This document shows, piece after piece, positions 28,624-62,050 of a DNA stretch of 64,000 nucleotides. The stretch is from an uncultured Oscillospiraceae bacterium (GTDB taxonomy: Bacteria; Bacillota; Clostridia; Oscillospirales; Oscillospiraceae). Position 1 is the first letter of the stretch. Each line of letters opens with the position of its first letter. The stretch covers positions 1 to 64,000 of the forward strand of contig CAJFQQ010000012.1 of the NCBI GenBank assembly GCA_904419145.1. Reading direction: 5' to 3'. The notes beneath the pieces are model-generated. The model ran no database searches. It saw nothing but the letters and a program-made list of their open reading frames with translations, and was not told the DNA's origin. The position numbers and the translations under genes were made by a program.

Positions 28624-28805
28624 TGTGGAATTGCTCCACAAAAGCCTCGCAGAGTTTCACGCCGCCGGCGTGAAAAATATCCAATCATTTTGGCAGGACA
28701 TGTGCCTGCCGAAAATACTTTGATCTGCGCGCCGGGGGCGCGCACACCAGTGACCGACGTCACTGGTGAGGGGGAATCTAAAGGGGGGACGAAGTCCCCT
28801 CTTTA
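28624..28805. repeat. Hairpin array B, between pheS and pheT
   Basis: Six successive inverted repeats with different sequences: 28624-28640 (6-bp stem), 28655-28675 (9 bp), 28687-28716 (imperfect, 14 bp with bulges), 28726-28744 (8 bp), 28745-28768 (10 bp) and 28779-28805 (12 bp, one wobble). They fill almost the whole 212-bp gap inside what should be a tight operon. The last is just after the pheS stop and could terminate or protect the upstream mRNA. Confidence 0.75.
28641..28685. repeat. Constant-flank hairpin module, copy 1
   Basis: AAAGCCTCGCAGAGTT at 28641-28656, a palindrome TTTCACGCC/GGCGTGAAA, then ATCCAAT at 28679-28685. Copy 2 (30629-30672) has identical outer blocks and a different palindrome. 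Confidence 0.75.
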
Positions 28806-30257: not shown

Positions 30258-30495
30258 AGCAAAAAAGCCCTCCGTCCCAGTTCCTGGGACGAAAGGCTGC
30301 TTCCTTCCGCGGTACCACCCGTATTCGCACATCGTGCGCACTTTCACGCCGGTAACGGGGCGCTTACCGTCCCTGTCTCCAGGGCAGCTCCCGGGCGAAC
30401 CAAGGGACACGGCGCAGGCGGGCTCTCAGCCGGTGACCCACCCTCTCTTGGAGCCGCAAGCTCCCTATTTTCCCGTTCAACGCGTTTCGCTAAGA
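30258..30495 (-). ncRNA. T-box riboswitch specific for tRNA-Phe
   Basis: The minus strand carries the T-box sequence GGGTGGTACCGCGG (complement of 30307-30320), followed by an intrinsic terminator: stem AGCCTTTCGTCCCAG with CTGGGACGGAGGGCT and TTTTTT (30261-30300). Stem I includes GAGAGGGTGGG and CTGAGAGCC upstream of TTGGTTCGCCCGGGAG, in which the specifier codon is UUC (30399-30397), encoding Phe. Uncharged tRNA-Phe should stabilise the antiterminator and allow transcription of DUF2500-pheS-pheT. Confidence 0.95.
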
Positions 30496-30572: not shown

Positions 30573-30599
30573 GAATCCCCCGGAGTTTCCTCCGGGGGA
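30573..30599. repeat. 27-bp direct repeat with hairpin, copy 1
   Basis: The 27-base block starting GAATCCCCCGGAG is identical to 30887-30913. Each copy contains a 10-bp hairpin (30576-30585 with 30590-30599). On the minus strand copy 1 is followed by TTCTTTATTATT, so it can act as a terminator. Confidence 0.9.
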
Positions 30600-30886
30600 C
30601 GTAGACTGTCAAAAAACTTCCCCGCAGGAAAGCCTCGCAGAGTTCCTGCGGCCGCAGCCGCAGGAATCCAATGAAGATCCGTCATTTCCGGGGACAGCAA
30701 CCTTCCCCGCGCAGCATAGCTGCGCGGCCTACGCTAAAAATGTGCCACCGGCACATTTTCTTTACGCTGCGGCCTCGGAAATGACACTCCTCGCGCAAGA
30801 TGGGCTGACTTTTCCGTCAGGAATCGAGGCCCATCTTGTGCGCATCCCTCTCAAAAAAGTGGCAGAAGCCACTTTTTTGACGCACT
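30600..30886. repeat. Hairpin array C between the rhomboid-like gene and the T-box
   Basis: 287 bp with no gene, enclosed by the 27-bp direct repeats. It contains hairpins at 30643-30666 (10-bp stem), 30707-30727 (9 bp), 30737-30759 (10 bp) and 30851-30880 (13 bp); the 30707 and 30737 hairpins are nested in a long-range helix 30681-30690 with 30776-30785, and an imperfect helix joins about 30792-30804 with 30829-30843. The arm CCGCAGGAA (about 30623-30630) competes with the 30643 hairpin. Confidence 0.75.
30629..30672. repeat. Constant-flank hairpin module, copy 2
   Basis: AAAGCCTCGCAGAGTT at 30629-30644 and ATCCAAT at 30666-30672 enclose the palindrome TTCCTGCGGC/GCCGCAGGAA, which shares no sequence with the palindrome of copy 1. 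Confidence 0.75.
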
Positions 30887-30913
30887 GAATCCCCCGGAGT
30901 TTCCTCCGGGGGA
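30887..30913 (-). repeat. 27-bp direct repeat with hairpin, copy 2
   Basis: Identical to 30573-30599. It lies seven bases after the stop codon of the rhomboid-like gene and is probably its original terminator stem. Confidence 0.9.
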
Positions 30914-30920
30914 TGTCGGA

Positions 30921-31781
30921 TCACTTCTCGTCGTCCTCGGTAAAGTGGACGTGGTTGAAGATATGCTCCTCGCAGAAGCAGTGGTACCCGGCGCAGCGGG
31001 AGCAATACCGGAACTGCATGTTGGGATAGTCCGCGTCGGTCTTGCCGCAGACGGCGCACTTGTGGTTGTAGGGCTTGGCGTGCTGGCTGGCCTTCACCGT
31101 CTGGCGGAACCGGGTGGCCTGCTTGCTGCGGCCGGCGCGCTGAATGCGGGCCTTTTTGCTGAAATAGGGGTAGAAGAACACCACGAAGTTCAGCAGCGCC
31201 ACCACCGGCGCCACCGCGCCGCCCCAATCTCCAATGGCGATGCTGGTGATGACTCCATAGGCAAAGTAGGCCAGGTCCGCCCAGGCCAGCCACTTGATCT
31301 TGATGGGGATGAAGAAGAACAGCAGCACCATGGCATTCGGGTTCAGGGCCGCATAGGCCAGGAACATGGCCATGTTTACGTAGTGGAGCCCCGTCATGAT
31401 CCCCAGGCCGCCGGCAAAGTAGGCGATAAAAGCGGCCAGGATGGTGAGGACGATGCCGCTGATGTAGTAGATGGTAAACTTCGGCGTGCCCCAGTAGTTT
31501 TCCAGCATGTTCCCCATCCAGTAGTAAAAGTACAGAGAGATCAGCAGGGAGAGGGGGCTGGTGCTCAATGGCAGGAAGATAAAGGTCACCAGACGCCAGA
31601 CCTCCCCATGGAAGATGGAGCCGGGAACCAGGGATAGGGACAGATAGGCCTGATTCTGGGTCAGAATGCACAATACATACATGGCCACTGTGCCGATGAC
31701 GATGTAGCGCATCAGGTTGGGGATGCCCCAGTAGGGGTGTCGGGCACAGAAGCGGTCGATGGCGTCGTATAGCTTGTTCAA
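30921..31781 (-). CDS. Rhomboid-like membrane protein lacking the catalytic serine, with C-terminal zinc ribbon
   Basis: 286 residues with about six transmembrane helices. HGEVWRLVTFIFLP matches the rhomboid L1 loop WR motif, but the GxSG serine motif is missing: the corresponding helix reads GLHYVNMAMFLAYAALNPNAM. The C-terminus holds CAVCG...YCSRC and a further Cys/His cluster (CFCEEH), a probable zinc-binding module. It is therefore likely a pseudoprotease that binds or retains membrane proteins (inference). A minus-strand hairpin repeat immediately follows its stop. Confidence 0.75.
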   Translation of the reverse strand: MNKLYDAIDRFCARHPYWGIPNLMRYIVIGTVAMYVLCILTQNQAYLSLSLVPGSIFHGEVWRLVTFIFLPLSTSPLSLLISLYFYYWMGNMLENYWGTPKFTIYYISGIVLTILAAFIAYFAGGLGIMTGLHYVNMAMFLAYAALNPNAMVLLFFFIPIKIKWLAWADLAYFAYGVITSIAIGDWGGAVAPVVALLNFVVFFYPYFSKKARIQRAGRSKQATRFRQTVKASQHAKPYNHKCAVCGKTDADYPNMQFRYCSRCAGYHCFCEEHIFNHVHFTEDDEK

Positions 31782-61920: not shown

Positions 61921-61938
61921 CAACATGACAAGTACATC

Positions 61939-62050
61939 ACGCTCATATAATTTCGTTAGTATGGTACGAAAGTTTCTACGGGGCCGCCAAAAGGTCCTGC
62001 TATGGGTGTTTCGCCGGGGCTGTTCCGGGCGAAGCGCCCTTTTGCTTTTT
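61939..62050 (+). ncRNA. Purine riboswitch (guanine-type) with expression platform
   Basis: The aptamer is 61939-62009: P1 (61939-61946 with 62002-62009), J1/2 TATAAT, P2 with loop TAGTATGG, J2/3 GTTTCTAC, P3 with loop GCCAAAA, and J3/1 ending CTATG, in which the C corresponds to position 74 (C for guanine, U for adenine). The base before it is G rather than the usual A. Downstream, TTCGCC (62010-62015) can pair with GGCGAA (62028-62033), competing with terminator stem GGGCG/CGCCC (62027-62039) and TTTTGCTTTTTC. Confidence 0.88.

Follow-up and report, generated by a model that had tools for sequence, protein, structure and literature searches.

A stem-rich block lies between two copies of one hairpin

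How did a gene-free block full of stems come to lie between two copies of the same terminator hairpin? The question arises in the window (the whole stretch of DNA analyzed, 64,000 nucleotides), where such a block separates a rhomboid-like gene (positions 30921 to 31781, minus strand) from the T-box leader upstream of pheS (30282 to 30489, minus strand). A preliminary description had drawn attention to 27-bp perfect direct repeats on its two sides, and we found positions 30573 to 30599 and 30887 to 30913 to be identical indeed, each copy being a 10-bp hairpin. Over 30573 to 30602 and 30887 to 30916, the first 27 bp are identical and 29/30 positions agree overall, the similarity thus reaching 30602 with one mismatch. 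The block itself (30600 to 30886) has the 287 nt described and folds with −133.8 kcal/mol, compared with a mean of −85.5 for shuffled versions (z = −9.0, 0/200 shuffles), and the only open reading frames in the window's list that overlap the outer element defined below are chance-like. The T-box that had been placed beside the block was recovered as a match to RF00230 (66.9 bits, E = 3e-14), which is under the curated cut-off of 93 and is missed by a standard scan of the window.

One repeat had also been taken for the natural 3' end of the rhomboid-like gene, which we could refine. Copy 2 (30887 to 30913) adjoins the stop codon of this gene, but in gene direction it has lost its U-tract to the end of the intervening element, whereas copy 1 (30573 to 30599), distal to the gene on the T-box side, comprises the whole terminator hairpin and retains the U-tract in the minus-strand sense; neither copy is assigned to a strand. 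A widespread terminator sequence, named in the preliminary description as the competing source of the repeats, was rejected, since a search of the 2.4-Mb genome for the 24-bp stem-loop of the 27-mer, with up to 2 mismatches allowed, gave these two sites and no third.

The block consists of two nested repeats

When blasted against its own genome, the block gave 26 matches, comprising one other full-length copy (G000:C67:2918-3197, 93% identical) and many copies of ~200 bp or less, which lack the positions equivalent to ~30697 to 30771. The block is made of two nested dispersed repeats, the inner one lying in the loop of the central palindrome of the outer one. This arrangement accounts for the long-range helix enclosing other stems that had been described; the helix stands, while the single hairpin array envisaged around it has to be replaced by the two repeats.

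The outer, non-autonomous element (30603 to 30886, plus strand) has IS1182-like inverted ends, AGACTGTCAAAAAA / TTTTTTGACGCACTG. It holds, all on the plus strand, a conserved motif GCCTCGCAGAG (30632 to 30642) on the 5' side of a structured core, helix H1 of this core (30643 to 30666, arms 30643-30652 / 30657-30666), helix H2 (30681 to 30785, pairing 30681-30693 with 30773-30785 and split by the inner insert), and helix P3 (30793 to 30841, pairing 30793-30805 with 30829-30841). These are followed by a terminal hairpin, TCAAAAAAGTGGC / GCCACTTTTTTGA (30851 to 30880, no strand assigned), which is terminator-like on both strands. At what is seemingly the same gene end, we found the terminal hairpin alone in the window's genome (L100, G000:C1:83274) and the full element in a relative (L102, G009:C54); L100 looks like an internal-deletion remnant.

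The inner 75-bp hairpin repeat in the H2 loop (30697 to 30771, plus strand, boundaries approximate) belongs to a separate family, whose 70- to 75-bp members have matches in 11/11 genomes of the genus. Copies of the outer element without the insert exist, and the inner repeat is most simply a later insertion into the loop. In two outer copies (L096 and L106), this loop holds other hairpin inserts and looks like a hot spot for insertion. The inner repeat itself is composed of two hairpins with compensatory changes, as judged by eye.

The nearest relative carries an empty site

We then compared the site in 10 other genomes of the genus (G010 being left out of the count), among which G009 is the closest by its rhomboid protein (92% identity). 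At the end of its rhomboid-like gene, on the same contig as locus L205, G009 has one terminator hairpin with a T-tract, directly followed by the T-box promoter, and no element. This is the single-copy empty site for which the preliminary description had proposed to look. Eight other genomes of the genus also have the site without the element, but with different downstream genes. The arrangement of the U-tracts in the window is the one that a hairpin duplication by an insertion would produce.

Duplicated hairpins recur at other copies

We then asked how often copies of the element lie between duplicated hairpins, by aligning the 40-nt left and right flanks of each element locally and using mismatched element pairs as a control. 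For 23 end-defined copies in the genus (26 rows minus L084:1460, L112:207, and L145:1433, whose end pairs are false or doubtful), among them another element body from G001 that shares these ends, the flank score reached at least 14 in 15 copies, versus 1/506 cross pairs, and at least 18 in 12 copies, versus 0/506. In G074, from another genus, 19/20 near-identical copies were flanked at a score of at least 18, compared with 0/380 mismatched pairs at 18 and 1/380 at 14. Three of the four copies in G084 have a duplicated flanking hairpin, as do 9 of the single best copies from 27 genomes, where G068 has a non-hairpin repeat (this count omits L311 and L339, which have short flanks, and L325; L318/L374, L319/L361, and L330/L378 each mark a single place). 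In G076, whose copies lack the end motif, the flanks were compared without using end motifs.

The signature is thus common but not universal across genomes. No duplicated hairpin was found at 8/23 genus copies or at 18/27 single best copies from different genomes, which could be due to decay, to different ends, or to different target outcomes. A score of 18 is reached by only 2/7 end-defined copies in the window's own genome (the window copy and L092). Both results count against the explanation that we favor.

In 23 clear cases, hand-chosen from the genus copies, complete IS, and the G074 and G084 sets, the duplicated stretch measures 22 to 41 bp (median, 30), and in 18 of them neither of its edges is more than 2 nt from that of the palindrome. 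At L351 and L287, one hairpin copy has its loop reversed relative to the other, as though a stem-loop had been flipped when the element inserted or later. A simple staggered cut would not give this result, which also counts against the favored explanation.

These flanks bear on two other origins of the repeats. The two terminators might be independent, one per flanking gene and alike through within-genome resemblance, the element between them being no more than tolerated, and two different hairpins do occur at L089, L090, L096, L191, L196, and L308. We consider this very improbable, as no cross pair reaches 18 in either control, and at the window it is refuted by these controls together with the uniqueness of the 24-mer and the one-hairpin empty site. 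Alternatively, the locus could be a product of segmental duplication or recombination, the element carrying its terminator along as it spreads. A tandem pair in another genome (L145/L153, G001:C77:12393-12763), in which three copies of one terminator are shared by two near-identical elements, speaks for this origin. The hairpin differs from locus to locus, however, yet any one element has the same hairpin on its two sides, which makes the hairpin a property of the site and not of the element; we give such an origin hardly any credence. The tandem pair looks as if amplified between duplicated hairpins, which suggests that recombination between copies does happen. Loss of the block by recombination between the 27-bp repeats, which had also been envisaged, was not observed. 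The envisaged insertion with terminator duplication is right, being supported by the dispersed repeat, the empty site in G009, and the duplicated terminators at unrelated sites.

Complete IS1182-type elements share the ends and the targets

Transposases with PF13751 are encoded in 78/300 genomes of the bacterial family. Scanning 52 of these loci, we found 7 distinct IS with ends of the form CAGNNTGTC..GACANNCTG (leaving out the spurious L181 and L190 and counting L303 as a repeat of L194), and 4/7 sit between duplicated hairpins of 29 to 35 bp. The proteins of all four score above the cut-off of 270 for NF033551 (IS1182 family), with 385 to 401 bits, compared with 22 to 26 bits for the IS1634 model (cut-off, 100). 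Among six plasmid records, the IS1182 elements of Cetobacterium and Bacillus subtilis show hairpin duplications, the S. simulans record shows two hairpins that differ, and the remaining three have no duplication or no end pair. In G074, a decayed transposase lies beside a matching end, CAGACTGTCAAA.

The outer element passes four tests for a MITE: it is 284 bp long (<500 bp), multicopy, and dispersed; it has terminal inverted repeats (AGACTGTCAAAAAA / TTTTTTGACGCACTG) and, at the window locus, a 27-bp target-site duplication; and it shares its ends with autonomous elements, namely, the 7 IS of the bacterial family, none of which is in its own genome. Because it is dispersed, has an empty site, and lies between two copies of the local hairpin, as do complete IS with the same ends, and because the duplicated stretch is the palindrome, we propose that the block is very probably a miniature transposable element, non-autonomous but bearing IS1182-family ends, and that its target was the intrinsic terminator of the rhomboid-like gene. 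The IS1182 family at large has the NF033551 transposase and inverted ends. The window element is too short to hold a transposase and has none, so it is not a member of the family but an IS1182-type derivative by its ends and target.

Several observations count against this explanation. No IS1182 transposase was detected in the window's own genome, and none in 10/18 genomes examined, several of which are rich in element copies. The 5' end of the window element is CGTAGACTGTC instead of CAGACTGTC, and the source genome of its copies is a draft assembly. As no transposase is detectable there, the copies in the window's genome are probably stranded.

A proposed mechanism in which the hairpin sets the duplication

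A given transposase usually makes target-site duplications that are short and constant in length. Here, both length and position match those of a DNA hairpin, suggesting recognition of structure by the transposase. In the mechanism that we propose, the transposase would recognize the hairpin or cruciform shape of its target, the element would be joined on each strand to the 5' foot of the stem, and the whole stem-loop would be copied during gap repair, so that the length of the duplication would follow the size of the hairpin. The transposase would have acted in trans; it is now undetectable in the window's genome. Each neighbor would keep a terminator, making the insertion nearly harmless, which suggests how such elements accumulate without disturbing gene expression. 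Duplicated hairpins would also allow recent insertions to be recognized cleanly.

Unusually long, variable target duplications are made by IS1549 / IS1634. The duplications described here are likewise long and variable, but their length is set by the hairpin and the IS1634 model stays far below its cut-off.

Targeting of hairpins by the IS1182 family is already known. IS1272 and TnSha1 of Staphylococcus, which belong to this family, are described in PMC5678879 and PMC4923244 as using stem-loop targets, often terminators, with no sequence specificity, and the palindromic targets of the family are attributed there to Siguier 2015. IS1272 resembles our elements in that the complete IS found here have the same transposase family and hairpins as targets. 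The two differ in outcome: IS1272 deletes or replaces the hairpin, and its treatment in PMC4923244 has terminator hairpins as targets, a deletion, and no target-site duplication, whereas the elements here, at the window and elsewhere, duplicate the hairpin instead of replacing it. In Fig. 13 of PMC5678879, according to its legend, stem-loop duplication in full appears only as a possibility (pathway b), next to the deletion that is proposed for IS1272; the present counts are genome-scale evidence for pathway b. PMC12056078 has IS1182-related transposases acting with or without target duplication and able to recognize the sequence or the structure of the target. For ISPse1 of Paracoccus, also of the IS1182 family, the relevant entry in PMC3281130 gives the number 4, which we read as a 4-bp duplication.

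The pneumococcal BOX, RUP, and SPRITE repeats, characterized in PMC3049150 as small, non-coding, and probably mobile, with strong secondary structure and enrichment downstream of genes, are similar to the window element in these features. They occur in another host, and the passages that describe them mention no terminator duplication. In the literature that we searched, we found neither duplication of a whole terminator by an IS or a MITE, exact and as a regular outcome, nor the non-autonomous family described here. Such duplication may already stand in the Siguier 2014/2015 reviews or in ISfinder.

The structured core covaries and is widespread in the family

Without its inner insert, the outer element consists of helices with conserved loops and linkers and strongly varying stems. 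In 10 elements, 23/53 pairs change on both sides (mean of 13 for shuffled and 5 to 10 for slid versions), including 10/12 pairs of P3. In 80 distinct sequences aligned with a covariance model covering the first 89 nt, with 83 of the core loci collected by then as input, 21/23 pairs change on both sides (9/10 in H1), 97.7% of the cells pair, versus 44 to 57% in slid versions, and the covariation score is 0.508, versus 0.158 when shuffled, in an alignment that is fitted to the structure and thereby favors it. Covariation supports the helices. Part of the 10-element alignment (A2) has H4 out of register by one column; RNAalifold, applied to the mixed alignment (A1), missed P3 and part of H1 because two P3 subtypes were mixed; and a joint alignment (A4) was left out, the row of the pheS-pheT copy described below being misaligned.

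Matches to the core model were found in 103/200 genomes and 69/106 genera of the bacterial family. A phylum sample of 149 gave only 2 matches, both family members, and 0/147 outside the family. An Rfam search with the block and 8 related loci gave sub-threshold matches only, with no family at its cut-off. The analysis brings to light an unnamed repeat family of gut bacteria, large and with strong covariation.

Might the element be primarily a structured RNA or regulatory unit, and not selfish DNA, which acquired IS-like ends and whose hairpins are kept by selection for RNA function? The paired changes in the core and its presence in about half of the family genomes speak for this, as does an excess of G-U over A-C pairs (76 to 9; with one fixed G-U column set aside, 25 to 9), hinting that one strand of the core folds, as RNA or single-stranded DNA. 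However, the G-U count is biased by the model's preference for such pairs, folding of single-stranded DNA on one strand would also favor G-T over A-C, and the window element is antisense to both neighbors. We judge a primary RNA role rather unlikely; it is in any case compatible with the history of insertion and concerns what the core is for.

With insertion of an IS1182-type derivative as the preferred history, a broader picture can be entertained tentatively: a mobile family of structured RNA (or DNA folding on one strand), restricted to one gut bacterial family and carried on IS1182-type ends in about half of its genomes, whose transposase might measure the shape of a hairpin and duplicate it exactly, preserving the host terminator. 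If true, this picture would join an unnamed RNA to a separate outcome of DDE transposition, namely, target duplication defined by shape.

The pheS-pheT gap holds another copy of the structured core, a divergent one (28644 to 28723, also given as 28644-28800; plus strand; 39.5 bits, E = 1.2e-6). This copy runs antisense to the T-box operon in which it is located, the one described above, and has no visible inverted ends. Elsewhere in the window, a purine riboswitch (RF00167) was found at 61923 to 62022, with 56.4 bits.
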